A stretch of 64,000 nt of DNA from Manis javanica (Eukaryota; Chordata; Mammalia; Pholidota; Manidae): positions 160,057,401-160,121,400 of the forward strand of contig NC_133158.1 of NCBI RefSeq assembly GCF_040802235.1. The letters run 5' to 3'. Positions 41,030 to 62,819 of this stretch are shown piece after piece. Position 1 is the first letter of the stretch. Every line of letters starts with the position of its first letter. The translations under genes were made by a program, and so were the position numbers. Below the pieces are notes generated by a model. It did no database searches and was not told where the DNA came from. It saw only the letters and a list, made by a program, of their open reading frames with translations.

Positions 41030-41308
41030 AGTTTGAAAAAGAAGAGCCAACCAAAATTAATGGGAAAAGGATGAACTACCAAATACCTATGAATACCCCT
41101 GGGACAATTGGCTATCCAAATAAAAAAAATTCAAATTCATATTTCACATTGTATAACAAATAAACTTAACGTTGACGGAAGACTTAACTATAAACATCCA
41201 AGTATACAACTTCAGAAGAAAATATATCAGGACAGGGAAAGATTTTTTTTTAAAGTTACAAAAGCTGAAATCATAGGTAAAAATAGAATATATTTTACTA
41301 CATTGAAT
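41030..41308 (+). mobile_element. Ancient L1, fragment 1 of 4 (host of the nested cluster)
   Basis: Plus-strand old L1 ORF2 C-terminal coding remnant ('ctgggacaattggctatcca', 'aacttcagaagaaaatatat'). The same ancient element resumes after each younger insertion at 41827-42136, 50341-50520 and 57401-57885, giving about 1.25 kb of original L1 split into four. It has many stops. Confidence 0.6.
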
Positions 41309-41826
41309 GGATAAAGAAGATGTGGTACATATACACAATGGAATATTATTCAGCATAAGAAAAAAACAAATCCTACCATTTGCAACAACATGGATGGAGC
41401 TAGAGGGTATTATGCTCAGTGAAATAAGACAGGCCAAGAAAGACAAGTACCAAATGATTTCACTCATCTGTGGAGTATAAGAACAAATAAAAAATTGAAG
41501 GAACAAAACAGCAGCAGAATCACAGAACCCAAGAATGGACTAACAGTTACCAAGGGGTAAGGGAATGGGGAGGATGGGTGGGAAGGGAGGGATAAGGGGG
41601 AAAAGGGGCATTATGATCAGCACAGATAATGTAGGGCAGGGCATAGGGAAGGCAGTATATATGGAGAAGACAAGTAGTGATTCTATAGCATCTTACTATG
41701 CTGATGGACAGGACTGTGTATGTGCTGGGGACTTGATAATGGGGAATCAAGTAACCACAATGTTGCTCATGTAATTATAGATTAATGATACCAAAATAAA
41801 AACAAACAAATAAATAAATGAGTAAA
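41309..41826 (+). mobile_element. L1 3' end with ordinary (tail-less) terminus
   Basis: A 5'-truncated plus-strand L1. It begins in the last part of ORF2 ('gaatggataaagaagatgtg') and covers the 3' UTR ('ggggaggatgggtgggaagg'). It finishes with 'ctcatgtaattatagattaa' and 'tgataccaaaataaa', then an A-rich AAATA repeat. This terminus lacks any retroviral tail and serves as the internal reference for where an ordinary L1 of this kind ends. I could not identify its target-site duplication. Confidence 0.75.
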
Positions 41827-42136
41827 TAAAACTTTTGTATGAAAAAGACACCAATAGCAACAATAAAATCAAAGGTAAAAAGTTTATGGAAATGACACAA
41901 TGGAAAAATATATTTGAAATATAAATAATCCAAACAGAAGAAGTCATGATCCAAATATGATCCAAAAATTCACTAGAGAGGTGTCATAAAAGGCCAATAA
42001 ACAAGAAAAATATGTGCATTTCACTAGTAGTGAGAAATGGAAAAGAAATAATAATGTGATAACAGCTCATAGCTGACTGGCAAAAAGAACTTTGTCACCA
42101 CAAAGTGTTAACTAGAATGTGGAGAAATACTTTTAT
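41827..42136 (+). mobile_element. Ancient L1, fragment 2 of 4
   Basis: Continues the old L1 after the previous insertion ('aacttttgtatgaaaaagac', then 'gagaaatggaaaagaaataa' and 'agaatgtggagaaatac'). Its last 15 bases (gagaaatacttttat, 42122-42136) are duplicated at 50326-50340 as the target-site duplication of the 8.2-kb L1. Confidence 0.65.
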
Positions 42137-42178
42137 TTATTTATTTATTATTTTTTTTAGTTTTTTTTTTCTTTTTTT

Positions 42179-43937
42179 GAGAGGGCATCTCTCATGCTTA
42201 TTGACCAAATGGTTGTTTACAACAATAAAATTCTGTACAGGGGAGTCAATGCTCAATGCACAATCATTAATCCACCCCCAGCCTAATTCTCATCAGTCTC
42301 CAATCTTCTGAAGCATAATGAACAAGTTCTTACATGGTGAACAGTACAAGGGCAGTCATCACAGAAACTTTCAGTTTTGGTCACTCATTATGAACTATAA
42401 ACAATCAGGTAAAATATGAATATTTGTTTGATTTTTATACTTGATTTATATGTGAATCCTACATTTCTCCCTTTATTATTATTATTATTTTTAATAAAAT
42501 GCTGAAGTGGTAGGTAGATGCAAGATAAAGGTAGAAAACATAGTTTAGTGTTGTAAGAGAGCAAATGTAGATGATCAGGTGTGTGCCTGTAGACTATGTG
42601 TTAATCCAAGCTAGACAAGGGCAATAATACATCCACGGATGCAGAAGATTTCTCTCAAAACAGGGGGGGTGAGGTTCTAAGCCTCACCTCTGTTGATCCC
42701 CAATTTCTCACCTGATGGCCCCCCGGCGACTGTGCTTGTCTTAGGTTGTTCCTCCCTTGAGGAATCTTACCCGTCTCTGGCTAACCAGTCATCTTCCAGG
42801 GCCGTACAGGGAAATGTAAAGTTGGTAAGTGAGAGAGAAGCCTTATTGTTTGAAAAGGTTAGCTTTTTACTTCTTTGCATATTTATGCCTTGTGGCTTTT
42901 ATACCCAGCATTTGTCTTGAGGTATCTTTACCACTTAGAAGAATTATGATATTCGGTAAATTCGATATGAAGCATGAATTCTATTTAAGGGTTGTAATTA
43001 GGAAGGAAGAAGAAAAGCTATAGAGGTAGCAGGCAGAAGAAAACATGGGAAGACTGATTATTTCTTTGACATATCTTCTTGTAGAGTAACTTAAGTATGT
43101 GTAGGTTTTAAACTACTAATTAAATTGCGCACACACATTAACATAATAGGAATACAGTTACATAACCAAAGCAGATCTATAATTACCAGCCATCTCCAGT
43201 GAAGCCAAGAAAACCAGATAGGCACCCTAGGCATTTGTGAAAATTTGTCTATGATATGATGGGTATTGTCCAACTGTACTTGAACAGTCTGAGAGAAATC
43301 AGACAAATTAAAACAACCCATTCCTGGGAACTGTTCACATCCCATATGTTCTTCTAACAGTAGATAGTCTGTAGTTGTAAGATTTTGGAGCGCTACAATT
43401 TGCACTTCTCCTAATTCTTAGTTGAGTTCCAACAGTATAGATCCAGTCAAATTTGCGGTTTTACTGTATGCACAGGCCAGCTTAGATATCTCCTTCTTCA
43501 TTCCAATGGCAAGTCCAAGAACCAGTGGGATGAATGCAGCTACAACTGCAGCATCACCTGGATCTTTGTTGAGTATTTTTGATGATCATCTTCTGGTATG
43601 AGTCTTCCAGGGAGTGCTGATGTTGGATGTTCTTCTTCAAATTATATCTTAGTTCATTTTCTGGGTAGCCAAATTAGGCTTTGCTCCTCTGTATAAACAC
43701 AAACAGACCCTTTGCCCACACTTTGATATGCCGTTTATACCATTGTGTAGAATTCACTGGAGGTCACCACACAGGAACTGCTTTTTTTTTTCTTTAAGAG
43801 AAAGGAATATTATCAGAAAAGTGTACATCCATAGCTGATCATCTGACACACTTTAAGTGATCAAAAATAAGGATATATAAAGCATGCATTAATCATTGAT
43901 TTACCCTTAGTTTTATCCTATCAGGGAGTAATCCCCC
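42179..43937 (-). mobile_element. ERV-derived tail of L1 copy 1 (env TM remnant plus LTR-like end)
   Basis: About 1.76 kb downstream of the ordinary L1 3' end. Minus strand, 5' to 3': unassigned retroviral sequence (43937-43570); an env transmembrane-subunit remnant (about 43560-43091); then about 0.9 kb of LTR-like sequence with a TAA/ATT microsatellite (near 42474-42494), one 19-bp unit (42320-42338), and an end at 'gagatgccctctc' followed by poly(A). The position of the poly(A) signal reads AATAAG here. The layout is collinear with 61017-62565 and, in part, with 53020-53585. Confidence 0.8.
43091..43560 (-). pseudogene. Endogenous retroviral env transmembrane-subunit fragment (in L1 copy 1)
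   Basis: The minus-strand translation shows the recognisable layout of a retroviral Env transmembrane subunit: a hydrophobic fusion-peptide-like stretch (about 43560-43500), a heptad-rich region containing IVALQN, a cysteine loop (CEQFPGMGCFNLSD), a second helix (QVQLDN...IIDKFSQMP), a Trp-rich pre-membrane segment (WFSWLHWRW) and a membrane span. An in-frame stop (TAA, around 43420) breaks it, leaving 104 codons open from 43405 to 43091. The surface subunit is absent. The usual C-x6-C-C pattern reads C-x7-C because one Cys is Gly. The type is closest to the C-x6-CC class (alpha/gammaretrovirus-like); I do not assign a family. In origin it is a viral fossil carried passively by an L1. Confidence 0.75.
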
Positions 43938-44290
43938 TTCTCTTTTTTTCTTTTTTTTTTTGTTATCTTTACTCTACACTTACATGAAGAATATTATATT
44001 TACTAGGCTCTCCCCTATACCAGGTCCCCCCTATAAACACCTTTACAGTCACTGTCCATCAGCAGAGCAAAATGTTGTAGAATCACTATTTGTCTTCTCT
44101 GTCTTGTACAGCCCTCCCCTTTCTCCCACCCCCCCATGCATGCTAATCTTAATACCCCTCTTCTTCTTCCACCCCCCATCCCTCCCTACCCACCCAGCCT
44201 CACCAGTCCCTTTCCCTTTGGTATCTGTTAGTCCATTCTTGGGTTCTGTGATTCTGCTGCTGTTTTATTCCTTCAGTTTTTCCTTTGTTC

Positions 44291-47200
44291 TTATACTCCA
44301 CAGATGAGTGAAATCATTTGGTATTTCTCTTTCTCCACTTGGCTTATTTCACTGAGCATAATACCCTCCAGGTCCATCCATGTTGCTGCAAATGGTAGGA
44401 TTTTCCCTCTTTTTATGGCTGAGTAGTATTCCATTGTGTATATGTACCACAGCTTCTTTATCCATTCATCTACCAATGGACATTTAGGTTGCTTCCAATT
44501 CTTGGCTATTGTAAATAGTGCTGCGATAAACATAGGGGTGCATCTGTCTTTCTCAAACTTGATTGCTGCATTCTTAGGGTAAATTCCTAGGAGCGCAATT
44601 CCTGGGTCAAATGGTAAGTCTGTTTTGAGCATTTTGATGTACCTCCATACTGCTTTCCACAATGGTTGAACTAATTTACATTTCCACCAGCGGTGTAGGA
44701 GGGTTCCCCTTTCTCCACAGCCTCGCCAACATTTGTTGTTGTTTGTCTTTTGGATGGCAGCCATTCTTACTGGTGTGAGTTGATACCTCATTATAGTTTT
44801 AATTTGCATTTCTCTGAAAATTAGTGATGTGGAACATCTTTTCATGTGTCTTTTGGCCATCTGTATTTATTTTTTGGAGATCTGTCTGTTCAGTTCCTCT
44901 GCCCATTTTTTAATTGGATTATTTGATTTTTGTTTGTTGAGGTATGTGAGCTCTTTATATATTTTGGACATCAAGCCTTTATCGGATCTGTCATTTACAA
45001 ATATATTCTGCCATACTCTAGGGTTCCTTTTTGTTCTATTGATGGTGTCTTTTGCTGTACAGAAGCTTTTCAGCTTAATATAGTCCCACTTGTTCATTTT
45101 TGCTATTGTTTTCCTTGCCCAGGGAGATATGTTCAAGAAGAGGTCACTCATGTTTATGTCTAAGAGGTTTTTGCCTATGTTTTTTTCCAAGAGTTTAATG
45201 GTTTCATGACTTGCATTCAGGTCTTTGATCCATTTTGAATTTACTTTTGTATATGGGGTTAGACAATGGTCCAGTTTCATTCTCCTATATGTAGCTGTCC
45301 AGTTTTGCCAGCACCATCTGTTGAAGAGACTGTTATTTCATCATTGTATGTCCATGGCTCCTTTATCAAATATTAATTGACCATATATGTTTGCGTTAAT
45401 GTCTGGATTCTCTTGTCTGATCCATTGGTCTGTGGCTCTGTTCTTGTGCCAGTACCAAATTGTCTTGATTACTATGCCTTTATAGTAGAGCTTGAAGTTG
45501 GGGAGTGAGATCCCCCCACTTTATTCTTCTTTCTCAGGATTGCTTTGGCTATTCAGGGTCTTTGGTGTTTCCATATGAATTTTTGAATTATTTGTTCCAG
45601 TTCATTGAAGAATGTTGCTGGTAATTTGATAGGGACTGCATCAAATCTGTATATTGCTTTGGGCAGTATGGCCATTTTGACAATACTGATTCTTCCTAGC
45701 CACGAGCATGGGATGAGTTTCCATTTGTTAGTGTCCCCTTTAATTTCTCTTAAGAGTGACTTGTAGTTTTCAGAGTATAGGTCATTCACTTCTTTGGTTA
45801 GATTTATTCCTAGGTATTTTACTCTTTTTGATGCAATTGTGAATGGAATTGTTTTCCTGATTTCTCTTTCTATTGGTTCATTGTTAGTGTATAGGAAAGC
45901 TACAGATTTCTGTGTGTTAATTTTTATCCTGCAAATTTGCTGTATTCTGATATCAGTTCTAGTACTTTTGGGGTGGAGTCTTTAGGGTTTTTTATGTACA
46001 ATATCATGTCATCTGCAAATAGTGACAGTTTAACTTCTTCTTTACCAATCTGGATTCCTTGTATTTCTTTGTTTTGTCTGATTGCCGTTGCTAGGACCTC
46101 CAGTACTATGTTAAATAGCAGTGGGGCTAGTGGGCATCCCTGTCTAGTTCCCGATCTCAGAGGAAAAACTTTCAGCTTCTTGCTGTTTAGTATAATGTTG
46201 GCTGTGGGTTTATGATATATGGCCTTTATTGTGTTGAGGAACTTGCCCTCTATTCCCATTTTGCTGAGAGTTTTTATCATGAATGGATGTTGAATTTTGT
46301 CAAATGCTTTTTCAGCATCTATGGAGATGATCATGTGGTTTTTGTCTTTCTTTTTGTTGATGTGGTGGATGATGTTGATGGATTTTTGAATGTAGTACCA
46401 TCCTTGCATCCCTGGGATGAATCCCACTTGGTCATGGTGTATGATCCTTTTGATATAGTTTTGAATTCGGTTTGCTAATATTTTATTAAGTATTTTTGCA
46501 TCTACATTCATCAGGGATATTGGTCTGTAATTTTCTTTTTTGGTGGGGTCTTTGCCTGGTTTTGGTATTAGAGTGATGTTGGCTTCATAGAATGAGTTTG
46601 GGAGTATTCCCTCCTCTTCAATTTTTTGGAAAACTTTAAGGAGAATGGGTATTATGTCTTCTCTGTGTGTCTGATAAAATTCCGAGGTAATTCCGTCCGG
46701 CCCCCGGGTTTTGTTCTTGGGTAGTTTTTGATTACCATTCCAATTTCTTTGCTCGTAATTGGTTTGTTTAACTTTTGTGTTTCTTCTTTGGTCAGTCTAG
46801 GAAGGTTGTATTTTTCTAGGAAGTTTTCCATTTCTTCTAGGTTTTCCAGCTTGTTGGCATATAGGTTTTCATAGTAGTCTTTAATAATTCTTTGTATTTC
46901 TGTGGAGTCTGTCATGATTTTTCTATTCTCATTTCTGATTATGTTGATTTGTGTTGACTCTCTTTTTCTCTTAATAAATTGGGCTAGAGGCTTATCTATT
47001 TTGTTTATTTTCTCAAAGAACCAGCTCTTGGTTTCATTGATTTTTGCTATTGTTTTATTCTTCTCAATTTTGTTTATTTCTACTCTGGTCTTTCTTATGT
47101 CCCTCCTTCTGCTGACTTTAGGCCTCATTTGTTCTTCTTTTTCCTATTTCGATAATTGTGATGTTAGACTATTCATTCGGGTTTGTTCTTCCTTCTTCAA

Positions 47201-48133
47201 GTGTGTCTGGATCGCTATATACTTTCCTCTTAGGACTGCTTTCGCTGCGTCCCACAGAAGTTGGGGCTTTGTGTTGTTGTTGTCATTTGTTTCTATATAT
47301 TCCTTGATCTCTATTTTGATTTTTTCATTGATCCATTGATTATTTAGGAGCATGTTGTTAAGCCTCCATGTGTTTGTGAGCCTTTTTGTTTTCTTTGTAG
47401 AATTTATTTCTACTTTTATACCTTTGTGGTCTGAAAAATTGGTTGGTAAAATTTCAATATTTTGGATTTTGCTGCGGCTCTTTTTGTGGGCTAGTATGTG
47501 GTCTTTTCTGGAGAATGTTCCATATGCACTTGAGAAGAATGTATATCCTGTTGCTTTCGGATGTAGAGTTCTATAGAATTCTATTAGGTCCATCTGCTCT
47601 ACTGTGTTGTTCAGTGCTTCTGTGTCCTTACTTATTTTCTGCCCAGTGAATCTATCTTTTGGGGTGAGTGGTGTGTTGAAGTCTCCTAAAATGAATGCAT
47701 TGCAGTCTATTTCCCCCTTTAGTTCTGTTAGTATTTGTTTCACATATGCTGGTGCTCCTGTGTTGGGTGCATATATATTTAGAATGGTTATATCCTCTTG
47801 TTGGACTGAGCCCTTTATCATTATGTAGTGTCCTTCTTTATCTCTTGTCACTTTCTTTGTTTTGAAGTCTATTTTGTCTGATATTACTACTGCAACCCCT
47901 GCTTTCTTCTCGCTGTTGTTTGCCTGAAATATGTTTTTCCATACCTTGACTTTTAGTCTGTACATGTCTTTGGGTTGAGTTTCTTGTAAGCAGCATATAT
48001 ATGGATCTTGCTTTTTTATCCATTCTATTACTCTGTGTCTTTTGATTGGTGCATTCAGTCCATTTACATTTAGGGTGACTATTGAAAGATATGTACTTAT
48101 TGCCATTGCAGGCTTTAAATTCGTGGTTACCAA
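44291..48133 (-). pseudogene. L1 ORF2 (endonuclease/reverse transcriptase), broken
   Basis: About 3.84 kb, the full ORF2 length, but interrupted. The first 329 codons (48133-47144) form the APE-like endonuclease with visible catalytic motifs: NVNGLN, QET (Glu51), LGDFN (Asp151), a KDHI stretch where related L1s have IDHI (Asp211-His212), and SDH (234-236). An in-frame TAG follows at 47144-47146. Frameshifts occur near 46700, at about 45925 and near 45555, and a GAA-to-TAA type nonsense near 44865. The reverse-transcriptase core with LFADDM lies in 46511-45924. The C-terminal Cys-rich segment ([16 protein letters not shown]) lies in 44860-44291. No functional ORF2p can be made. Confidence 0.9.
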
Positions 48134-48301
48134 AGGTTCAAGGTCAGCCTCTTTAGTATCTTACTGCCTAACTTAGCTCGCTTATTGAGCTGTTATATAC
48201 ACTGTCTGGAGATTCTTTTCTTCTCTCCCTTCTTATTCCTCCTCCTCCATTCTTCATATGTTGGGTGTTTTGTTCTGTGCTATTTCTAGGAGTGCTCCCA
48301 T

Positions 48302-49156
48302 CTAGAGGAGTCCCTGTAAGATGCCCTGTAGAGGTGGTTTGTTGGAAGCAAATTCCCTCAGCTTTTGCTTGTCTGGGAATTGTTTAATCCCACCATCAGA
48401 TTTAAATGATAGTCGTGCTGGATACAGTATCCTTGGTTCAAGGCCCTTCTGTTTCATTGCATTAAGTATATCATGCCTTTCTCTTCTGGCCTGTAGGGTT
48501 TCTGTCGAGAAGTCTGATGTTAGCCTGATGGGTTTTCCTTTATAGGTGACCTTTTTCTCTCTAGCTGCCTTTAAAACTCTTTCCTTGTCCTTGATCTTTG
48601 CCATTTTAATTATTATGGGTCTTGTTGTTGTCCTCCTTGGGTCCTTTCTGTTGGGAGTTCTGTGTATTTCCGTGGTCTGTTCGATTATTTCCTCCCCCAG
48701 TTTGGGGAAGTTTTCAGCAATTTTTTCTTCCAAGATACTTTCCGTCCCTTTTCCTCTCTCTTCTTCTTCTGGTGCCCCTATAATATGGATATTATTCCTT
48801 TTGGATTGGTGACACAGTTCTCTTAATATTGTATCATTCCTGGAGATCCTTTTATCTTTCTTTATGTTACCTTCTATGCGTTCCTGTTCTCTGGTTTCAA
48901 TTCCATCAATGGCCTCTTGCATCTTATCCATTCTGCTTATAAATCCTTCCAGAGTTTGTTTCATTTCTGTGATCTCCTTTCTGGCATCTGTGATCTCCCT
49001 CCGGACTTCATCCCATTTCTCTTGCATATTTCTCTGCATCTCTGTCAGCATGTTTATGATTTTTATTTTGAGTTCTTTGTCAGGAAGACTGGTTAGGTCT
49101 ATCTCCTTCTCTGGTGTCTCTGTGATCTTGGTTTGCCTGTAGTTTTGTCTTTTCAT
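48302..49156 (-). CDS. L1 ORF1 protein, intact
   Basis: An uninterrupted 284-codon frame with the three expected parts of L1 ORF1p, the trimeric RNA-binding protein that coats L1 RNA in the ribonucleoprotein particle. There is a coiled coil at about residues 28-100 (heptad-rich, charged, e.g. EITEMKQTLEGFISRMDKMQ); an RRM-type domain at about 120-175 (NNIHIIGAPEEEERGKG); and a C-terminal domain at about 178-284 (RPIIIKMAKIKDKERVLKAA, ARLSFKSDGGIKQFPDKQKL) that ends in the usual LQGIL. It is shorter than human ORF1p (338 residues), mainly in the N-terminal/coiled-coil part. It starts at the first ATG after the 5' UTR. With ORF2 broken it could only act in trans, if transcribed. Confidence 0.9.
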   Translation of the reverse strand: MKRQNYRQTKITETPEKEIDLTSLPDKELKIKIINMLTEMQRNMQEKWDEVRREITDARKEITEMKQTLEGFISRMDKMQEAIDGIETREQERIEGNIKKDKRISRNDTILRELCHQSKRNNIHIIGAPEEEERGKGTESILEEKIAENFPKLGEEIIEQTTEIHRTPNRKDPRRTTTRPIIIKMAKIKDKERVLKAAREKKVTYKGKPIRLTSDFSTETLQARRERHDILNAMKQKGLEPRILYPARLSFKSDGGIKQFPDKQKLREFASNKPPLQGILQGLL

Positions 49157-50325
49157 GGTGATAGGAATAGTTTGCAGAGCTGGGACTAGTGACAGCTAGA
49201 AGAACTTCCCTTCTTGTTGGTTTGTGGCCTTCCTCTCCTGGGAGAATAGCGACCTCTAGTGGCTTGTGCTGTGTAGCTGCGCACAGACAGGGCTTCAGTT
49301 TCCTGCCTGGCTGCTATGGAGTTTATCTCCACTGTTGCTGTGGGCATGGCCTGGCTCGGACTGCTGCTCCAAAGTGGTGGAGTTGCGTTGGAGGGGGAGT
49401 AGCTAAGAGGCTATTTATCTCTATAAGAGGCCTCTGTGCTCCCTGCAGCTCAGGGGATTAGAGTGCGCAGAGATCCTGGGATTCCCTACCTTTGGACTAA
49501 GTGTCCCGCCCTGCCCCTTTAAAACTTCCAAAAATCACCCGCCAAAACAAAACGACCACAAAAAAAAAAAAAAAAAAATGGCCACTCGTTTTTCTTTATT
49601 CTCTGGCGCCAGGCTCGGGCACCCACTCACCAGACTTGCTGCCCTATTTCCCTAGTATTGGGGTCCCTATCCCTTTAAGACTTCCAAAAAATGCTCACCA
49701 AAACAAAACAACAAAAAAAGAAAAAAAGAAAAAGAAAGAAAAAAAGGTGGCTGCTCACATTTCTTTTGTTCCCTGGTGCTTGTCTCCGATACCCGCTTGC
49801 CAATCTTGCTGCCCTGTTTCCTTAGTATTGGGGTCCCTATCCCTTTAAGACTTCCAAAAAGCACTCACCACAACAAAACAACAACAACAACAACAACAAC
49901 AAAAAGATGGCCGCTCACTTTTCTTTTGTCCTCCGGCGCCAGCCTCCGTACCTGCTCACCATACTTGCTGCCCTGTTTCCCTAGTATCCAGGGCCCCGCG
50001 CATGCACTGTGTCTGCGCTCTGGTCCAGATGGCTGGGGCTGGGTATTCAGCAGTCCTGGGTACCTTCTCCCTCCTGCTCAGACCTCTCTCCTCCCGCCGG
50101 GAGCTGGGGGAAGGGGCGCTCGGGACCCGACAGGCTGGGGCTTGTATCTTACCCCCTTTGTGAGGCGCTGGGTTTTCGCAGGTGTGGATGTGGTCTGGAT
50201 GTTGTCCTGTGTCCTCTGGTCTCTATTTTAGGAAGAGTTGTCTTTGTTATATTTTCATAGATATATGTGGTTTTGGGAGGAGATTTCCACTGCTCTACTC
50301 ACGCTGCCATCCTGGCTCTGCCCTC
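49157..50325 (-). promoter_or_regulatory. L1 5' UTR with internal promoter region
   Basis: A 1.17-kb G+C-rich region upstream of ORF1 on the minus strand. Its outer edge ends at the target-site duplication, and its first bases contain an 'aggatggc' motif, the kind of YY1-type element found at the extreme 5' end of mammalian L1s. L1 transcription is driven by an internal promoter in this region. It contains the tandem array described separately. Confidence 0.7.
49513..49990 (-). repeat. Tandem repeat units in the L1 5' UTR
   Basis: Three imperfect units begin on the + strand at about 49513, 49671 and 49841 (spacing about 155 and 170 bp). Each reads 'cctttaa(g/a)acttccaaaaa', then a 'caccaaaacaaaac' A-rich stretch of varying length, then 'atggc(c/t)(a/g)ctca', a 'tctttt' run, 'gcgcc' or similar, and 'cttgctgccctrtttccctagtat'. 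The third is partial. The A-rich portions differ in length between units. Confidence 0.85.
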
Positions 50326-50340
50326 GAGAAATACTTTTAT

Positions 50341-50520
50341 GTTCTCATGTGGGAATGTAAATTGGTGAAGCCACTTTAAAGTAATTTGATAGGACTGGCT
50401 TAGGTTGAAAATTCATGTACTGTATCATCCAGCAGTTCCATTTATAGTTGTTTTCTACTTCTAAATGATCGTTCATATGGATGCAAAGACTTAAATACAG
50501 GAACTCAGTGCACTATTTTT
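50341..50520 (+). mobile_element. Ancient L1, fragment 3 of 4
   Basis: Resumes the old L1 right after the target-site duplication ('gttctcatgtgggaatgtaa', 'attggtgaagccactttaaa', 'atccagcagttccat'), then stops at the next insertion. Its last 12 bases (tgcactattttt, 50509-50520) recur as tgcactactttt at 57389-57400, the target-site duplication of that insertion. Confidence 0.7.
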
Positions 50521-52978
50521 TTCCTTATTAGTATAATTTTAAAAAAATTAAAGTATCATTTATACACAAGCTTTTGAAGGTTTCACATGAATAACCTTGT
50601 TGTTTTAACATTCACCTATATTATCAATCCTCACCACCCCCAGCCTCCAACATAGTCACTGTCAATCAGGGAAGTTAGATGCTATAGAGTCATTACTTGT
50701 CTTCTCTGTGCTATACGGCCTTCCCCGTGCCCCCTTATATTATGTGTGCTAATCATAGTGCCCTTTCATCTATCCCTGTCTTCCCACTTACCCTCCCCAG
50801 TCCCTTTCCCTTTGGTAACTGCTAGTCCATTCTTGGGTTCTGTCAGTCTGCTGCTGTTGTTCCTTCAATTCTTGCTTTGTTGTTATACTCCACAAATGAG
50901 TGAAATCATTTGGTACTTGTCTTTCTCCACCTGGATTATTTCACTGAGCATAATACCCTCTAGCTCCATCCATGTTATTGCAAATGGTAGGATTTGTTTT
51001 TTTTCTTATGGCTGAATAATATTCTATTGTGTATATGTACCACATCTTCTTTATCCATTCATCTCCTGATAGACACTTAGGTTGCTTCCATATCTTGGTT
51101 GTTGTAAATAGAGTGTGCATATGTCTTTTTTAGTCTGGGGACTTGTTTTCTTAAGGTAAATTCCTAATAATACAATTTCTGGGTCAAATTGTATTTCTAT
51201 TTTTAGTTTTTTGAGGAACCTCCATATTGCTTACCACAATGCTTCAACTAATCCACATTCTCACCAACAGTGTAGGTGAGTTCCCCTTTCTCCACATCCT
51301 CACCAGAATTTGTTGTCCCTTGTCTTTTGAATATTAGCCATCCTGACTGATGTGAGGTGATAGCTCATTGTGGTCTTAATTTACATTTCCCTGATAACCC
51401 ATGATGTAGAGCATCTTTTCATGTGCCTGTTGGCCATGTGAAAATTTTCTTTGGAGAACTGTCTGTTCACACCCTCTGCCCATTTTTTAATCAGGATATT
51501 TGCCTGTTGGGTGTTGAGAGGTGTAAGTTCATTATATATTTTGGATGTTAACCCCTCATCAGATATGTCATTTATAAATATATTCTCCCATACTGTAGGA
51601 TGCCTTTTTGTTCTACTGATGGTGTCCTTTGCTATATGGAAGCTTCTTAGTTTGATGTAGGCCCATTTGTTCATTTTTTATTTTGTTTCCCTTGGCCAAG
51701 GAGATTTATTCAGGAAAAAGTTTCTCATGTGTATATTCAAGAGATTTTTGCCTTTTTGCCTATGTTTTCTTCTAAGAGTTTTATGGTTTCATCACTTACA
51801 TCCAGGTTTTTGATCCATTTCGAGTTTACTTTTGTGTATGGGGTTAGACAATAATCCAGTTTCATTCTCTTACATCTAGCTGTCCAGTTTTGCTTACACC
51901 AGTTGTTGAAGAGGCTGTCTGTTCTGTATTGTATATCCATGGCTCCTTTATTGTATATTAATTGGTCATGTATGTGTGGCTTATATCTGTGTTCTCTATC
52001 CTGTTCCATTGATCTGTGGGTCTGTTCTTTTGCTAGTACCAAATCATTTTGATTACTGTGTCTTTATAGTAAGGCTTGAAGTTAGGGAGAATAATCCCCC
52101 TAGCTTTTTTCTTCCTTTTCAGGATTGCTTTGGCTATTTGGCATCCTTGTGGTTCCACAGAATTTTAGAACTATTTGTTCTAGTTCAATGAAGAATGCTG
52201 CTGGTATTTTGACAGGGATTGCATTGAATCTGTAGATTACTTTAGGTAGAATGGCCATTTTAACAATATTAATTCTTCCTAACCATGAGCATGGGATGTA
52301 TTTCCATTTATTGGTGTCTTTTAAAATTTCTCTCATGAGTGTCTTGTAGTTTTCAGGGTATAGGTTTATTTCTAGGTACTTTATTCTTTTTGATGCAATC
52401 GTAAATGGAGTTGTTTTCCTGATAACTCTTTCTGCTAGTCCATCATTAGTATATAGAAATGCAACAGATGTCTGTGTATTAATTTTGTATCCTGCAACTT
52501 TGCTGAATTCAGTTATTAGTTCTAATAGTTTTGGGGTGGATTCTTTAGGTGATTTATGTACAATATCATGTCATCTGCAGATAGTGACAGTTTAACTTCT
52601 TGCTTACCAGTCTGGATGCTTTTGACTTCTTTGTGTTGTCTGATTTCCATGGCTAGGACCTCCAGTACTATGCTGAATAAAATTGATGAGAGTGGGCACT
52701 TTTGCCTTGTTCCCAATCTTAGAGGAACAGTTTTAGCTTTTCACTGTTAAGTATGATGGCCTGTATTATGTTGAGGTACTTGCTCTCTGTACCCATTTTG
52801 TTAAAAGTTTTTGTCATGAATGGATGTTGAATTTGTCAAATGCTTTTGCAGCATCTATGGAGATGATCATGTGATTTTTGTCCTTCTTCTTGATAATGGT
52901 GTATGATGTTGTTGGATTTTCATATATTGTACCATCCTTGCATCCCTGGAATAAATCCTACTTGATCACGATGGATGA

Positions 52979-53020
<42 letters not shown>

Positions 53021-56000
53021 AGAGGGCATCTCTCATATTTATTGATCAAATGGTTGTTAACAACAATAAAATTCAGTATAGGGGGGTCAATGCTCAATGT
53101 ACAATCATTAATCCATCTCAAGCCTAATTCTCGTCAGTCTCCAATCTTCTGAAGCATAACGAACAAGTTCTTACATGGTGAACGAATTCTTACAGAGTGA
53201 ATAAATTCTTACATGGTGAACAGTACAAGGGCAGTCATCACAGAAACTTTCGGTTTTGATCATGCAATATGACCTATAAACCATCAGGTCAAATATGAAT
53301 ATTCATTTGATTTTTGTACTTGATTTATATGTTGATCCCACATTTCTCCTATTATTATTATTATTTTTATTTTTAATAAAATGCTGAAGTGGTAGGTAGA
53401 TGCAAGATATAGGTAGAAAACATAGTTTAGTGCTGTAAGAAGGCAAATATAGATGATCAGATGATCAGGTGTGTGCCTATGGACTAAGTATTAATCCAGG
53501 CTAGACAAGGGCAGCAAGACATCCACGGATGCAGAAGATTTCTCTCAAAGCAGGGGGGGTGAGGTTCTGAGCCTCACCTCTGTTGGATGGATGACCTTTT
53601 TGATGTATTTTTGAATTGGGTTTGCTAATATTTTGTTGAGGATTTTTGCATCTATGTTCATCAGGGATACTGGTCTGTAATTTTCTTTCTTTTGTGGTGT
53701 CTTTGCCTGGTTTTGGTATTGGAGTGATGCTGGCCTCATAGAATGAGTTTGAAAGTATTCCCTCCTTTACTTTTTGGAAATCTTTATGGAGGATGGTTAT
53801 TAAGTCTTCCTTAAATGTTTGATAAAATTCAGCAGTGAAGCCATATAGTCCAGGCATTTTGTTCTTAGGTAGTTTTTTTATTACTTTTTCAATTTCATTG
53901 CTGGTAATTGATTCGTTCAGATTTTCTGTTTCTTCCTGGGTCAGCCTTGGAAGGTTGTATTTTTCTAGAAAGTTCCATTTCTTCTAGATTATCCAATTTG
54001 TTAGCATATAATTTTTTATAGTATTCTCTAATAATTCTTTTATTAATGCGCTGTCTGTAGTGATTTTTCCTTTCTCATTTTTGATTCTGTTTATGTGTGT
54101 AGACTTTTTTTCTTGATAAGTCTGGCTAGGGGGTTATCTGTTTTGTTTATTTTTTCAGATAACCAGCTCTTGGTTTCATTGATTCTTCATACTGTTTTTT
54201 TCTTCTCAATTTTATTTATTTCTGCTCTAATATTTAGTATGTCCCTCCTTCTACCGACTTTGGACCTCGTTTGTTCTTCTTTTTCTAGTTTCATTAATTG
54301 TGAATTTAGACTGTTCTTCTGGGATTGTTCTTCTTTCTTCAGGTAAGCCTGTATTGCTTTATACTTTCCTCTTAGAACTGCCTTCACTGTATCCCACAGT
54401 TTTTGGGCTGTCGAGTTGTTGTTTTCATTTGTCTCCGTATATTGCTTAATCTCTGTTTTTATTTGGTCATTGATCCATTGATTATTTAGGAGCACGTTGT
54501 TAAATCTCCATGTGTTTGTGTGCTTTTTTGTTTTCTTTGCATAATTTATTTCTAGTTTCATACCTTTGTGGTTTGAGAAGCTGGTTGGCACAATTTCAAT
54601 CTTTTTGAATTTACTGAGGCTCTTTTTGTGGCCAACTATGTGATCTATTCTGGAAAACGTTCCCTGTGCACTTGAGAAGAATGTGTATTCTGCTGGTTTT
54701 GGGTGGAGTGTTCTGTAGATGTCTGTTAGGACCATCTGTTCTAATACATTGTTCAGTGCCTTAGTCTCCTTACTTATTTTCTGTCTGGCTCATCTGTCCT
54801 TTGGATTGAGTGGTGTGTTAAATTCTCCTAAATTGAATGAATTATATTCTATTTCCCCCTTTAATTCTGTTAGTACTTGTTTTACTTATTTAAGGTGTTC
54901 CTATGTTGGGTCCATAGATATTTATAATAGTTATATCCTCTTGTTGGACTCATTTTTTTATCATTGTCTGTTGTTACTTTCTTTGTTTTGAAATCTATTT
55001 TGTCTGACACAATTACAGCTACTCCTACTTTTTTCTCCCTATTATTTGCATGAAATATCTTTTTCCATCCCTTTACATTTAGTCTGTGTATATGTTTGAG
55101 TTTGAAGTGACTCTCTTGTAGGCAGCATATTAATGGGTCTTGCTTTTTTGTCCATTCTGTAATCCTATGTCTTTCAATTGGTGCATTCAGTCCATTTACT
55201 TTAGGGTGATTATTGAGAGATACATACTTATTGCCATTGCAGGCTTTTGATTCCTAGTTTCCAAAGGTTCAAGGGCAGCCTCCTTACTGTCTAATAGTCT
55301 AACTTACCTTGCTTATTATGCTATTTCAAACACAATCTAAAGGTTTTTTCCCTCCCTTCTTCCTCCTCCTCCACTCTCTGTATATTAGGTGTCATATTCT
55401 GTACTCTTTGTGTATCCCTTGCCTAACTTTGTGAGTAGTTGATTTAATTTTGTATGTGCTTACTAATTAATTGGTTTATTTCCTTTACTCTGGTTTATTT
55501 TCTCTGGTGACAGCTATTTAGCCTTAGGAGCACTTCCATCTAGAGTAGTCCCTTTAAGATACACTGTAGAGATGGTTTGTAGGAAGTAGATTCCCTCAAC
55601 TTTTGCTTATATGGAAGTTGTTTAATCCCTGGTTCAAATTTAAATGATAATTTTGCCAGATAGAGTATTCTTGGTTAGAGGCCCTTCTGTTTCATTGCCT
55701 TAAATATATCATGCTACTCCTTTCTGGTCTGTAACATTTCTGCTGAGAAGTCTGCTGATATCCTGATGGGGTTTCCTTTATGAGTGATCTTTTTTCTCTC
55801 TCTGGCTACTTTCAATACTCTCTCTTTGTCCTTGATTTTTGTCATTTTAATTGTTATGTCTTGATGTTGTCTTCCTTGGGTTCCTTGTGTTGGAAGATAT
55901 GTGCACTTCTGTGACCTGAGAGACTATTTCCTTTACCAGATTGGGGAATTTTTCAGCAATTATTTCCTCAAAGACCTCTCTTTTTCTCTCTTTTCTACTG

Positions 56001-57388
56001 GTACCCCTATAATGTGAATATTGTTCCGTTTGGATTGACCACACAGTTCTCTTATTATTCTTTCATTCCTAGAGATCTTTTTATCTCTGTGTTCCTCAGC
56101 TTCTTTGTTTTCCTGTTCTCTAGTTTATATTTCATTTACTTTCTCCTCTATCTCACCTAATCTACCTTTAAATCCCTCCATTGTATACTTCATTTGAGAT
56201 ACTGTATTTTTCAACATTTGTCTCTTTCTTGAAGTCCTCCCTGAGATCTTGAATAATTTTTTATAGCTCCATGAACATGTTTATGACTTTTATTTTGAAA
56301 TCTTTATCAAGAAGGTCAGTGATTTCAGTTTCACTGAGTCTTTTGTTTGGCGTTTTTTCCTGCACTTTTGTTTGGACCAAATTCTTTTGCTGTTTCATTT
56401 CTTTAGTGTTTCCTATGGAATGATAACTTTGTGTAGGCAATACCCTCTAGTGTCCCAAAGGTCTACTCTCTGGAGCTGCCAAGCACCTACAGCAATGGTG
56501 GTTTTCCCAGGCAAGTGCAACTGGCACCTGGCACCTGTCTATAGGAAAGAGCTCTTTCCTTCCTTCCTGTCTTTAGAGCGCCTCCATTGCCAGGTCCAGT
56601 GGGCTGCAGGGAGGAGCCACTGTGCTATGCCTCTGTAGCTTATTTAGTCAGGGCCACTCTCCAGCTGGCCTAGCATGATGGGTGGGGTAGTAGGCATGCA
56701 GGACAGTTGCCTTCTGCGAGGAAGAAGCAACAGGCTGCATACTACAGTGGGGGATCTTGGGGCTGCATTGCCAGCCATGCAGACTGACCATCTGGAGCTC
56801 CTGAGAGTTCCCAACCTGCTGGGCGGAGTGTGCCTCAGTGATCTTGTCCATCGGCTCTTTCTTCTGAGCAGTGAGCTCTGTATACTCTTTGCTGCTTTAG
56901 CGCCCCTCTTGTTGCTAGGAATTCTTTCAAAGTTCCCACCTTTTTTTTATCCAAGAGCAGCTGGTTGTGCATACCTGTTCTCCACAAGTGGATGGAATCT
57001 CAGTCTCTCCATGTATTCTCCCTATCTTTGCTTTCCAACCCCACTAATCTCCAGACTACCATGTAATGTGGGTTTGTACTCCTGGAACAAATCTCTGGGG
57101 CTGGGTGTTCAGTAGTCCTGGGCTTCTACTCCCTCCCTGCTGTGTTTCTCTTCCTCCTGCCTATGGGCTAGGGTAGGGGGAGGGCTTGTGTCCCACTGGA
57201 TCACAGCTTGGCTATTTTACCCTTTTTTGTGAGGTCTTCTCTTTTTTCAAGATATAGGCAGTCTGTTTTGCAACCTTCAGGTCACTTTTTCAGGATTAGT
57301 TGTATTTGCTGTATTTTCATGTTGTATGTGGTTTTGAGAAGAGGTTTCTGCCTCCTTATGCTGCCATATTTTTCTGACTCCCTCTAAT
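50521..57388 (-). mobile_element. Older near full-length L1, antisense, ordinary 3' end
   Basis: A minus-strand L1 of about 6.26 kb once the insertion at 52981-53585 is removed. The 3' UTR lies at 50521-51300, ORF2 remnants at about 51380-55250 (the SADDMILYI version of the LFADDM reverse-transcriptase motif in 52716-52522; an endonuclease SRIDHI-type stretch near 54620), ORF1 remnants at about 55600-56400, and a 5' UTR up to 57388, where 'atggcagcataagga' is seen near the end. Every frame is heavily interrupted, far more than in copy 1, so it is older. Flanks tgcactattttt / tgcactactttt give a 12-bp target-site duplication. It lacks the ERV-derived tail. Confidence 0.85.
52981..53585 (-). 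mobile_element. Tail-only insertion of the L1-ERV lineage (copy 3)
   Basis: A 605-bp minus-strand insertion into ORF2 of the older L1. The 16-bp target-site duplication gatggatgaccttttt is exact at 52970-52985 and 53586-53601. It opens on the + strand with 39 uninterrupted T (52981-53019), then carries the last 566 bp of the ERV-derived tail, with an AATAAA signal (complement at 53038-53043), three 19-bp units (53161-53217) and an (ATT)n run. No L1 coding sequence is included. The perfect duplication and pure homopolymer point to a recent insertion. Confidence 0.9.
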
Positions 57389-57400
57389 TGCACTACTTTT

Positions 57401-57885
57401 AGTCATTGCAAAAAATAGAAAACAACCTATTTGCCCTAATTCTCTTGTTAGAGAAGGGAAAAAACAATCATGATATACTCATCCAGTAGAACACTACACA
57501 GCAGTCTAAGTGAATGGACAAGAGTCACATGTATTAATGTAAATCTTTGTTGAATGTAAAAAGCAGAATACAAAAGGATATTTATGGTTGTTTCAGTAAG
57601 ATTTAAAATAAACTATATGTAAAAAGTAGTCATATATAAGTTGAGTTTCTGTAAATTTTAAAAATGTGTTAATTCTGTGTAATATAGTGTACTAAAAATA
57701 ATACTAGTTACTGCTTCTGGATACATATATGTGAAGTACCAAGAATACAGTCATGGAAGGAAAGAACACTTTCTAACTTAAGGGTGTTGGTTATTTCCAG
57801 GGAGCAATGGAGGTAGGGACTTCAACTCTGACACATTTAAAACTTACTTGAAACAAAATTAAGAGCATAACTGTAATAAAGAGAA
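57401..57885 (+). mobile_element. Ancient L1, fragment 4 of 4
   Basis: Final part of the old plus-strand L1 ('agtcattgcaaaaaatagaa', 'aacaacctatttgccctaat', 'ccagtagaacactacacagc', 'gaatggacaagagtcacatg'), continuing in register with the fragment ending at 50520. It runs into the 3' UTR and ends about 57885. Confidence 0.65.
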
Positions 57886-58951
57886 AAAGCTCTGGCTTAG
57901 GATTTCTAAGTGCCCTGTGACCTTCCCCAAGCCCTTCCACATGTTGCTTGAACTTTCCGGGGGATATTAGGTTGGGGTTTCAACTATTTTTAGCACAAGA
58001 ACTCTTCATTCAAGAAAGTCATCTGACACCAATTCCCAGTGTGTATAAGAGGCAAAATCAAAACTGCTCACACCAAAATGGAAGGGCATTTGTCCCCACT
58101 TACCACCATCACCCCCTCCAGGGAGCCCAGGGTTTGGCAGAGATCAGTTTGCAGACCCCTAGACTGGGTGACCTCTACAGCAGCTTCTCCCTCTGACAGC
58201 CTGCATGTCTGTGGAACCAAGTATTTCTTAAACATGAGGGAAAGCCTATTTCCCTGAGTACCTGTTGCATATAAGGGCTCTTGTATAGGAAACATCTGGA
58301 GGAATGGAAGAATACTTTTTACTGTGAATAACCATCTCCTAATATGGCCATTCCACAGATTTGAATGTTAAGGGTAGGATTTTTCTCCCCACTTTTGTAA
58401 ACTGCAATTCATTTCATTTTTGATGCTCATGTCATTTCCTTACCTTCCTAAACTTATACTCTGACCACTCCATGTATTGAGTGCCCCTCTTGCCTCCTTT
58501 TTTCATGACCTTTGTCCTTTTGATCCCCCTCTCCTTCCTTCCTCCATTTCATGCAAAAGCCATTTATCAGGTACCCTAAAAGACCTGCCAGTCAACCTCC
58601 CAAGTGAGGAGCCAAGAACCCACTGCTTCCACTTCCTCAGTACTCACTTTTTCCTGAGCTCCCTTTATTCACTTCTTGTTTGAAATTAATTGAAGAAGAT
58701 TGACAACCAATTCCTAATTATGAAATCCAAAGGATTTCCCTTTGGCTCTCAAATTCCTTTCCACAGTCCTTGACATCAAGATGGGATAGGTGGAGTCTGC
58801 TGCTCCTTGGCCATTCCCTCAGTTAGCCAGGTGTAAAAGTACAGGCTCATTTTGGGGAGTTTTATTCTTGTGTTTCTCTTACTGAATTTTAAATTAATAA
58901 TTAATGCTTTATGAAAAGTATGTCACAAATGTGATACTAAGAAATTATCCT
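57886..58951. other. Intron 2 block, nothing recognised
   Basis: Unique-looking sequence between the cluster and the next L1. Two overlapping open frames at 57948-58257 lack coding character. The end of the block, gaaattatcct (58941-58951), is the left target-site duplication of the next L1. Confidence 0.4.
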
Positions 58952-59021
58952 GGTCCTAGCCATGGCAATTAGACAAAACAAAGAAATATAAGGAATCCAG
59001 ATTGGTAAAGAAGAAGTTAAA

Positions 59022-60743
59022 TTGTCACTATTTGCAGATGACATGATATTGTACATAAAAAACCCTAAAGGCTCCACACCAAAACTACTAGAACTGATAT
59101 CAGAATACAGCAAAGTTGCAGGATACAAAATCAACACACAGAAATCTGTGGCTTTCCTATACACTAACAATGAACCAACAGAAAGAGAAATCAGGAAAAC
59201 AACTCCATTCACAATTGCATCAAAAAAAATAAAATACCTAGGAATAAACCTAACTAAAGAAGTGAAAGACTTATACTCTGAAAACTACAAGTCACTCTTA
59301 AGAGAAATTAAAGGGGACACTAACAGATGGAAACTCATCCCATGCTCGTGGCTAGGAAGAATTAATATCGTCAAAATGGCCATCCTGCCCAAAGCAATAT
59401 ACAGATTTGATGCAATCCCTATGAAACTACCAGCAACATTCTTCAATGAACTGGAACAAATAACTCAAAAATTCATATGGAAACACCAAAGACCTGAATA
59501 GCCAAAGCAATACTGAGAAAGAAGAATAAAGTAGGGGGGATCTCACTCCCCAACTTCAAGCTCCATCAAGACAATTTGGTACTGGCACAAGAACAGAGCC
59601 ACAGACCAATGGATCAGACAAGAGAATCCAGACATTAACCCAGACATATATGGTCAATTAATATTTGATAAAGGAGCCATGGACATACAATGACGAAATA
59701 ACAGTCTCTTCAACAGATGGTGCTGGCAAAACTGGACAGCTACATATAGGAGAATGAAACTGGACCATTGTCTAACCCCATATACAAAAGTAAACTCAAA
59801 ATGGATCAAAGACCTAAATGCAAGTCATGAAACCATTAAACTCTTGGAAAAAAACATAGGCAAAAACCTCTTAGACATAAACATGAGTGACCTCTTCTTG
59901 AACATATCTCCCTGGGCAAGGAAAACAACAGCAAAAATGAACAAGTGGGACTATATTAAGCTGAAAAGCTTCTGTACAGCAAAAGACACCATCAATAGAA
60001 CAAAAAGGAACCCTACAGTATGGCAGAATATATATGAAAATGACAGATCCAATAAAAGCTTGACATCCAGAATATATAAAGAGCTCACATGCCTCAACAA
60101 ACAAAAAACAAATAACCCAAGTAAAAAATGGGCAGAGGAACTGAACAGACAGTTCTCTAAAAAAGAAATACAGATGGCCAACAGACACATGAAAAGATGC
60201 TCCACATTGCTAATTATCAGAGAAATGCAAATTAAAACTAGAATGAGGTATCACCTCACACCAGTAAGGATGGCTGCCATCCAAAAGACAAACAACAACA
60301 AATGTTGGCGAGGCTGTGGAGAAAGGGGAACCCTCCTACACTGCTGGTGAAAATGTAAATTAGTTTAACCATTGTGGAAAGCAGTATGGAGGTTCATCAA
60401 AATGTTCAAAATAGACTTACCATTTGACCCAGGAATTGCACTCCTAGGAATTTACCCTAAGAATGCAGCAATCAAGTTTGAGAAAGACAGATACACCCCT
60501 ATGTTTATCGCAGCACTATTTACAATAGCCAAGAATTGGAAGCAACCTAAATGTCCATCGGTAGATGAATGGATAAAGAAGCTGTGGTACATATACGCAA
60601 TGGAATACTACTCAGCCATAAGAAGAGGGCAAATCCTACCATTTGCAGCAACATGGATGGACCTGGAGGGTATTATGCTCAGTGAAATAAGCCAAGCAGA
60701 GAAAGAGAAATACCAAATGATTTCACTCATCTGTGGAGTATAA
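59022..60743 (+). pseudogene. L1 ORF2 C-terminal half, broken (copy 2)
   Basis: Three consecutive pieces in different frames: 59022-59501 (begins at the [10 protein letters not shown] reverse-transcriptase motif), 59754-60350 (ends at the [11 protein letters not shown]ys-rich segment) and 60372-60743 (extreme C-terminus, ending SLICGV). The break near 59501 lies in the same 'HQRP' region as one break in copy 1, so that lesion was probably inherited from a shared source. Confidence 0.9.
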
Positions 60744-61016
60744 GAACAAAGGAAAAACTGAAGGGACAAAACAGCAGCAGAATCACAGAACCCAATAATG
60801 GACTAACAGGTACCAAAGGGAAAGGGACTGGGGAGGATGGGTGGGTAGGGAGGGATAAGGGTGGGGGGAAGAAGAAGAGGGGTATTAAGATTAGCATGCA
60901 TGGTGGAGTGGGGAAAGGGGAGGGCTGAACAACACAGAGAAGACAAGTAGTGATTCTACAACATTTTGCTCTGCTGATGGACAGTGAGTGTAAAGGGGTT
61001 TACAGGGGGGACCTGG

Positions 61017-62565
61017 TTATACAGAGGATCAAAGCCTAAGTTGGCTACCCCAAAAATGAACTAAGATGCGATATGAAAAAGAACTTCCAACATCAGCACT
61101 CTCTGGAAGACTCATGCCAGAAGATGATCATCAAAAAACCCCAACAAAGATCCACGTGCTGCTACAGGTGTAGATGCACTCATCCCACCGGTTCCTGGAC
61201 TTGCCATGGGAATGAAGAAAGAGATATCTAAGCTGGCCTGTGCATACAATAAAACAACAAATTTGACTGGATCTATACTGTTGGAACTCAACCAAGAATT
61301 AGGAGAAGTGCGAATTGTAGCGCTCCAAAATCTTACAACTACAGACTATTTACTGTTAAAAGAACATATGAGATGTGAACAGTCCCCAGGAATGGGCTGT
61401 TTTACTTTGTCTGATTTCTCTCAGACTGTTCAAGTTCAGTTGGACAATATCCACCATATCATAGATAGGTTTTCACAAATGCCTAAGGTGCCTAACTGGT
61501 TTTCTTGGTTTCACTGGAGATGGCTGGTAATTATAGGTATGCTTTGGTTACGTAACTGTACTCCTATTATGTTAATGTGTGTGTGCAATTTAATTAGTAG
61601 TTTAAAACCTATACATGCTTATGTTACTCTACAAGAAGATATGTCAAAAAATAATCAATCTTCCCATGTTTTCTTCTGCCTGCTACTTCTATAGCTTTTC
61701 TTCTTCCTTCCTAATTACAACCCTTAAATAGAATTCGAGCCTCATATTGAATTTACCGTGTATCATAATAATTCTTCCAAGTGGTAAAGATACCTCAAGA
61801 CAAATGCTGGGCATAGAAGCCACAGGGCATAAATCTGCAAAGAAGTAAAAAGCTAACCTTTTCAAACAATAAGGCTTCTTTCTCACTTACCAACTTTACA
61901 TTTCCCTGTATGGCCCCGGAAGATGACTGGTTAGCCAGAGACGGGTAAGATTCCTCAAGGGAGGAACAACCTAAGACAGGCACAGTCTCAGGGGGGCCAT
62001 CAGGTGAGAAATTGGGGATCAACAGAGGTGCGGCTTAGAACCTCTCCCCCCCCGTTCTGAGAGAAATCTGCTGCATCTGTGGATGTTTTATTGCCCTTGT
62101 CTAGCTTGGACTAACACATAGTCTACAGGCACACACCTGATCATCTACGTTTGCTCTCTTACAACACTAAACTATGTTTTCTACCTTTATCTTGCATCTA
62201 CCTACCACTTCAGCATTTTATTAAAAATAATAATAATAAAGAGAGAAATGTATCCACATATAAATTAAGTATAAAAATCAAACGAATATTCATATTTGGA
62301 CTGATTGTTTCTAGTTCATAATGCATGATCAAAACCGAAAGTTTCTGTGATGACTGCCCTTGTACTCTTCACCATGTAACTTATTCACTATGTAAGAATT
62401 TGTTCTCCATGTAAGAACTTGTACATTATGCTTCAGAAGATTGGAGACTGATGAAAATTAGGCTTGGGGTGGATTAATGATTGTGCATTGAGCATTGACT
62501 CGCCTATGCAGAATTTTATTGTTGTTAACAACCATTTGATCAATAAATAGGAGAGATGCCCTCAC
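61017..62565 (+). mobile_element. ERV-derived tail of L1 copy 2
   Basis: A 1.55-kb tail collinear with the tail of copy 1: retroviral lead-in, env transmembrane-subunit segment (about 61165-61694), then LTR-like sequence with a (TAA)n run near 62225, a three-unit 19-bp array (about 62371-62424) and AATAAA 18 bases before the end. Confidence 0.8.
61206..61694 (+). pseudogene. Endogenous retroviral env transmembrane-subunit fragment, open (in L1 copy 2)
   Basis: Open for 162 codons from the first ATG, and open further upstream in the same frame. Features in order: end of a fusion-peptide-like hydrophobic stretch, ISKLACAYN and an NLTGS sequon, the heptad region with VALQN, a cysteine loop (CEQSPGMGCF), the second helix region, a Trp-rich WFSWFHWRW segment at about residues 97-105, a membrane span at about 106-130, and a short cytoplasmic tail. 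The surface subunit is missing, and the Cys pair of the loop is incomplete as in copy 1. An Env of this kind normally mediates virus-cell fusion. This fragment has no surface subunit, and nothing in the sequence shows that it is translated. Confidence 0.75.
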
Positions 62566-62579
62566 AAAAAAAAAAAAAA

Positions 62580-62819
62580 GTACACACTTCCAATTGTAAA
62601 ATAAATAAGTAACCGGGATGTAATGTATAGCATAAGGAATATAGTCAAAATATTGCAACAACTTGGTATGGTGATGGCTGGTCCCTAGAATTATCATGTA
62701 TATAAATGTTGAATCACTGTGTTGTACACCTGAAACTAATGTAATACTGTGTGTCAACTACCCTTCAATAAAAGATAATTATCTACAAAAAAAAAAAGGA
62801 AATACAATTTAAAAAAAAA
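62580..62819 (+). mobile_element. Old L1 3' end, probably carried by 3' transduction with copy 2
   Basis: A 240-bp L1MA-like 3' terminus ('cttccaattgtaaaataaat', 'ggaatatagtcaaaatattg', 'tgtatataaatgttgaatca', 'ctgtgttgtacacctgaaac', 'aataaaa' at 62767), ending in A-tracts at 62787-62797 and 62811-62819. The base sequence ggaattatcct follows directly (62820-62830) and matches the left flank gaaattatcct (58941-58951), so the duplication encloses copy 2 and this piece together. Confidence 0.65.

Follow-up and report, generated by a model that had tools for sequence, protein, structure and literature searches.

A stretch of 64,000 nucleotides from the pangolin Manis javanica (contig NC_133158.1, positions 160,057,401 to 160,121,400), hereafter called the window, contains five insertions related to long interspersed nuclear element 1 (LINE-1, L1). 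Three of them end in a common 3' tail that resembles the end of a retroviral transcript. We propose that these copies probably represent a composite L1 subfamily of pangolins (Manis or close kin), founded when transcription of an L1 read through to the poly(A) signal that a retroviral long terminal repeat (LTR) supplied. The five insertions are as follows:

41304-41826 (+): E4, L1 3' end without tail, serving as comparison copy
42137-50325 (-): E1, full-length L1 with retrovirus-like tail (self-BLAST, target-site duplication search)
50516-57388 (-): E5, older L1 without tail, host of E2
52981-53585 (-): E2, tail-only insertion, 5'-truncated, sitting in E5
58952-62579 (+): E3, 5'-truncated L1 with tail attached (self-BLAST)

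The tails occupy 42137-43937 (-) in E1, 61014-62579 (+) in E3 and 52981-53585 (-) in E2. According to self-BLAST, they are 90.3% identical between E1 and E3 (1573 columns), 83.6% between E1 and E2 (605) and 87.2% between E3 and E2 (580), and the L1 parts of E1 and E3 share 94.6% identity. These were the only tail copies in the window, also under a more sensitive search with the tail. All three terminate in poly(A), which agrees with an earlier, sequence-only reading of this DNA that had described three insertions with a common retrovirus-like 3' tail. The same reading held that the other two L1s finish at the ordinary L1 terminus, and alignment of the ends of E4 and E5 bears this out.

Target sites and the L1 part

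E1 is bounded by a 15-bp target-site duplication, GAGAAATACTTTTAT, located at 42122-42136 and 50326-50340. This single pair surrounds the entire composite, L1 and tail together, and the context of the insertion site is AC/ATAAAA. E2 has a 16-bp duplication, GATGGATGACCTTTTT, at 52970-52985 and 53586-53601, whose final five T are possibly part of the poly(A); its poly(A) measures 39 nt and its insertion site reads TC/AAAA. L1 target-site duplications are roughly 7-20 bp long, and the ends found here, poly(A) in all tail copies and duplications of 15-16 bp in E1 and E2, are of the L1 type. Among the tail-less copies, E5 is flanked on both sides by the 7-bp TGCACTA, and a search around E4 found no target-site duplication. 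A tally of the tails within the window thus gives two of three joined to L1 (E1, E3), two of three with duplications of their own (E1, E2) and three of three with poly(A). E1 and E3 are L1-plus-tail copies, and E2 carries no L1.

The presence of three copies inside about 20 kb could be taken as a sign of local segmental duplication or of an assembly artefact. We give this explanation practically no credence. Flanks and truncation points differ, the duplications of E1 and E2 are distinct, and the junction of L1 and tail is also present on other contigs. Moreover, self-BLAST similarity ends where the elements end, so the three tails did not come from local duplication. For E1 and E2 this candidate was rejected on their distinct target-site duplications and on similarity bounded by the elements. 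The claim of distinct target sites is accordingly upheld for these two and by the similarity edges, with no duplication found for E3.

The L1 part of E1 is organized as follows:

49509-49987 (-): 5' untranslated region (UTR), with three imperfect units in tandem at spacings of 156 and 170 bp
48302-49195 (-): open reading frame 1 (ORF1), 297 amino acids (aa), open stop to stop (PF02994, E=7.5e-22; PF17490, E=1.9e-19)
44291-48160 (-): ORF2 region, split into several open pieces
47144-48160 (-): ORF2, endonuclease piece (PF03372, E=1.5e-18)
45924-46796 (-): ORF2, reverse transcriptase piece (PF00078, E=8.1e-40)

E1 thus contains an ORF1 with RNA-binding and C-terminal domains and an ORF2 with APE-type endonuclease and reverse transcriptase, which identifies it as an L1. 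The tandem units of its 5'UTR resemble the promoter monomers found in certain rodent L1s.

The tail and its junction with L1

Read from the L1 outwards, E1 presents the L1 end, an A-run, an integrase-like piece, the transmembrane subunit (TM) of a retroviral envelope (Env), then a purine tract and an LTR-like stretch that holds a poly(A) signal, and finally poly(A). This order of parts matches the 3' end of a retroviral mRNA. The individual features are:

about 43938-43962 (-): E1, A-rich run closing the L1's own 3' terminus
43657-43734 (-): E1, open piece like the integrase C-terminal DNA-binding domain (PF00552, E=0.0022, 17.7 bits)
43091-43417 (-): E1, envelope TM piece, 108 aa open
42464-42474 (-): E1, purine tract AAAGGGAGAAA, then TG; putative polypurine tract and LTR start
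42182-42463 (-), low end approximate: E1, LTR-like 3' end, putative U3-R, then poly(A) to 42137
61128-61694 (+): E3, envelope TM within an open stretch of 188 aa (PDB 4jpr and 5h9c, E=1.7e-7)
62238-62567 (+): E3, purine tract (62238-62248) and LTR-like stretch from 62249, with AATAAA at 62542, then poly(A) to 62579

The closest solved structure in PDB to the TM of E3 is the avian ASLV TM; a Pfam search of the TM gave no match. The stretch preceding the TM resembles, by eye only, the start of the rodent Env P0025. From the TM to the purine tract the distance is about 0.5 kb, and the AATAAA site lies about 300 bp further. The purine tract and the following TG are aligned across all three tails, and AATAAA is present in two of them, E1 having AATAAG. 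On this order of signals the final part of the tail would be an LTR without U5. A provirus or solo LTR, which would show paired LTRs or a complete one with U5, duplications of 4-6 bp and no poly(A), was rejected on the poly(A) that soon follows the AATAAA site and on the 15-16 bp duplications of E1 and E2.

When E1 is aligned with E4 and E5, its ordinary L1 3'UTR runs through to the terminus and is followed by the A-rich run. The 65 nt preceding this run align to the E4 terminus better than 1000 of 1000 shuffles. E4 has AATAAA in its terminus, and E1 has at the same place only the variants AGTAAA and AATATA. The A-run is separated from the TM by about 380 bp, an interval without space for the Env surface subunit (SU) region that is present in the database protein P0024 described below. 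E1 thus shows the anatomy of a 3' transduction: L1 end kept, foreign 3' sequence, a second poly(A) and one pair of duplications around the whole. The L1 end is absent from E3, which lacks about 320 bp matching positions 43700-44018 of the window (60999-61030 in E3). This gap takes in the former L1 terminus together with the A-run, as well as the upstream portion of the integrase-like piece (from 43700). It could be a deletion private to this copy or the sign of a derived subgroup. Splicing was rejected as its source, as by eye its edges lack GT-AG; a simple deletion is the more likely explanation.

Divergence and database relatives

Over 507 codons of ORF2, E1 and E3 differ by a synonymous divergence (dS) of 0.074 and a nonsynonymous divergence (dN) of 0.034, a ratio of 0.46 (codon bootstrap 0.28-0.82); the corresponding ratio for 185 codons of the TM is 0.92 (0.47-2.39). 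The contrast between ORF2 and TM, where no constraint could be demonstrated, is suggestive, and the ORF2 ratio lies under 1 independently of it. The Kimura two-parameter (K2P) distance between the tails of E1 and E3 is 0.074 over 1519 sites, the same as the dS of ORF2. This equality is consistent with both parts having descended together, selection acting on ORF2 while the tail drifted. As neutral changes accumulated in each copy after its insertion, the constraint on the master elements must have been stronger than the one measured. Constraint on ORF2 and equal silent divergence of tail and ORF2 together indicate that functioning L1s probably bore the tail after the fusion.

At the rate of 2.2e-9 used for pangolins in PMC4643047, a divergence of 0.074 places the split of E1 and E3 at about 17 million years, which is a rough upper bound. 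E4 lies at K2P 0.15-0.17 from the E1/E3 pair, and E5 at 0.215 from both E1 and E3 in its 3' part and at 0.375 from E1 in its 5' half. The earlier description of the lineage as young can thus be kept only in a relative sense, given the 7.4% between the tails of E1 and E3. That the tail-bearing group is younger than tail-less L1s holds for E2 with respect to its host E5, and is not shown for the group as a whole.

A search with the TM of E3 matched 23 database proteins among 60 candidates (E up to 1), among them Manis javanica LOC108387303 with 66% identity. This search restricts candidates by length and under-samples full-length Env; a second one, with P0015 as query and longer proteins permitted, returned four. 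Also matching is P0024, a 472-aa protein of Manis javanica named "uncharacterized". We read it as an Env with SU and TM because of its full-length alignment with the TM relatives and with its relative P0025 from the rodent Perognathus, which is listed with PF00429; a Pfam search of P0024 itself gave no Env family. Its SU part weakly matches an immunoglobulin domain (PF13927, E=0.0029, under the cut-off).

A maximum likelihood tree of the TM was built from 27 sequences and rooted with the rodent protein; P0026, with SU present and the TM frame lost, was excluded. E1, E3 and 17 database proteins form one clade with ultrafast bootstrap of 100, inside which many nodes are weak. Outside it fall seven other database proteins, including the SU-bearing P0015, P0024, P0018 and P0022, the last two with short SU parts. 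A join without SU is found in P0023 and, by eye, in P0020.

The junction itself was searched for as protein, using an antisense reading frame that crosses it in E1. Of 139 candidates this probe matched three database proteins, two of which, P0027 and P0028, carry the junction. The alignment of P0027 consists of two pieces that overlap (64% and 70% identity) and lead from the pre-TM stretch to the L1 3'UTR (window 43598-44064). The retroviral piece of P0028, from 43889, shows 33% identity over 120 columns, being close across the first two dozen residues, and the protein extends into the L1 3'UTR with 50% identity from 43900 to 44304. The third protein, P0029, spans the L1 3'UTR and begins with a part that aligns to the terminus of E4, where there is no tail. 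P0027 and P0028 are known as predicted proteins only and lie on separate contigs of 611 and 836 bp; their overlapping parts differ by eye, so they do not represent one locus. DNA pattern scans for the tail in viral contig and genome contig databases gave no match, and a protein-pattern scan of viral contigs matched 2 stretches, neither of them a relative.

The tails might alternatively be processed copies of a retroviral mRNA, mobilized by L1 in the manner of HERV-W and lying beside L1s by chance. Such copies would have a U3-R-like end, poly(A) and L1-type duplications, and E2 is indeed a tail only. We judge this very improbable as a general explanation: the duplications of E1 enclose tail and about 6 kb of L1 together, the junction is common to E1, P0027 and P0028, and the silent divergence of tail and ORF2 agrees. 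For E1, the one duplication pair around both parts led us to reject a chance neighbourhood altogether.

The copies might also be no more than a small 3'-transduction group, in which one source element left a handful of daughters but no lasting subfamily. Direct sightings are limited to three copies and two junction contigs, as this explanation would have it, but the K2P distances of 7.4-10.6% among tails, the constraint on ORF2 and the 17 distinct database relatives of the TM suggest a longer history, and we hold it improbable. The window copies, the two junction contigs and the ORF2 constraint thus support the central claim of the sequence-only reading, an L1 lineage that carries and amplifies an endogenous retrovirus (ERV) env/LTR tail.

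Proposed origin of the composite element and comparison with known systems

In the origin that we favour, the founder L1 would have been located in sense orientation within or next to a retroviral insertion whose SU region had been deleted. Its transcription would have run beyond its own weak 3' end and stopped only where the downstream LTR offered a poly(A) signal, giving an RNA composed of L1, A-run, the end of integrase, TM, U3-R and poly(A). This composite RNA would then have been retrotransposed by L1 proteins, as suggested by poly(A) on every tail and by the two duplications of L1 size. From then on the retroviral part would have been a heritable 3'UTR of a lineage with ORF2 under selection, consistent with the codon counts, and the lineage would have left both full-length and 5'-truncated copies. 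The TM remnant may be a passenger, the working part of the tail being most likely the LTR poly(A) signal. Read-through explains why the L1 end is kept and followed by an A-run, why the orientation is sense, and why the tail stops cleanly at the LTR signal.

Several observations weigh against this account. E3 lacks the A-run segment, and the junctions of E1 and E3 are not identical. The integrase match (17.7 bits) is under the Pfam curated cut-off of 21, and the remaining searched pieces of that stretch had no match (six compared with Pfam gave this one match, two compared with PDB gave nothing relevant). The LTR is recognized by the order of its signals alone, and the dN/dS intervals of ORF2 and TM overlap. 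E2, taken by itself, might represent a processed transcript of a retrovirus. Among the clade's 17 TM proteins, 15 show neither the SU-less join nor L1. Finally, E3 has no target-site duplication of at least 8 bp, only a 7-bp, chance-like match at the edge of its poly(A); a later rearrangement at 62580-62790 might be the cause. By eye, this region directly after E3 resembles the 3' end of another, older repeat.

The main rival of read-through is template switching within one insertion, in which reverse transcriptase would start at the poly(A) tail of a retroviral mRNA, then jump to an L1 RNA at its 3' end and so produce a chimera that became a master. The resulting order, L1, poly(A) and retroviral 3' end, would be identical, but the L1 would have to be full-length after the jump and the jump would have to land by chance on L1 poly(A). 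Read-through is also the commoner way in which L1s gain added 3' sequence, and we regard template switching as unlikely. Template switching by the L1 enzyme has been proposed for chimeric insertions in a passage of PMC13174262.

Going beyond read-through as the founding event, the LTR poly(A) signal may have replaced the L1 terminator, and the fused element may have become a main, long-lived autonomous L1 family of pangolins, its retroviral end evolving with the masters; on this we are evenly divided. The sequence-only reading also called the retroviral sequence a functional 3' end and the LINE subfamily successful, which exceeds the evidence.

The closest parallel is SVA of hominids, whose SINE-R derives from HERV-K10, namely the end of its env gene together with its 3' LTR, and is followed by an A-tail (excerpt of PMC12593883); SVA is mobilized by L1 machinery (excerpt of PMC7353768). 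Both have an env/LTR-type 3' end with an A-tail, here from a different retrovirus and with a putative LTR. However, SVA is non-autonomous and contains hexamer, Alu-like and variable number tandem repeat (VNTR) parts, whereas here an L1 with ORF1 and ORF2 lies upstream. A tandem-repeat scan of 42000-63000 revealed no VNTR of SVA type; an Alu-like part was not searched for. The tail-bearing L1 may therefore be viewed, by analogy, as an autonomous counterpart to the SINE-R tail.

In L1 3' transduction a downstream poly(A) signal is used and the element's own signal bypassed (passage in PMC12593883), and daughter copies in transduction families carry common extra 3' sequence (PMC6425141). Here, in contrast, the transduced piece resembles a retroviral 3' end and is accompanied by ORF2 constraint and several percent divergence. 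HERV-W processed pseudogenes have a U3-R end, poly(A) and L1-type duplications (parts of PMC5537654); there retroviral RNA alone was copied, whereas here L1 lies upstream within one insertion. Chimeric LINE-1 insertions of the human lineage join L1 to foreign RNA in one event, the partners being small RNAs, Alu and mRNA fragments, and a term search of the main text of PMC13174262 showed no ERV. A pangolin provirus, ERV-Gamma.b9-Mpen, has a LINE-1 between env and 3' LTR (section of the MPERV paper, PMC12584738). Such an arrangement thus occurs, but that section treats it as an insertion that disrupted a single provirus rather than as a novel L1 3' end. In the pangolin genome papers PMC10551234 and PMC11825179, a term search gave no passage on such an L1. 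Searches of an open-access library listed no description of an L1 whose 3' end is retroviral; subscription journals and Dfam/Repbase, which were not covered, may well name such a repeat.

If the proposed origin is true, an autonomous LINE-1 can take on a retroviral 3' end in place of its own and keep evolving, in parallel to the gain of the SVA tail in apes. Since E1 still displays the L1 end with its A-run, the path from read-through to a new subfamily would be traceable copy by copy. L1 would also disperse LTR and envelope sequence in the genome, which would affect the reading of pangolin ERV counts and repeat libraries.

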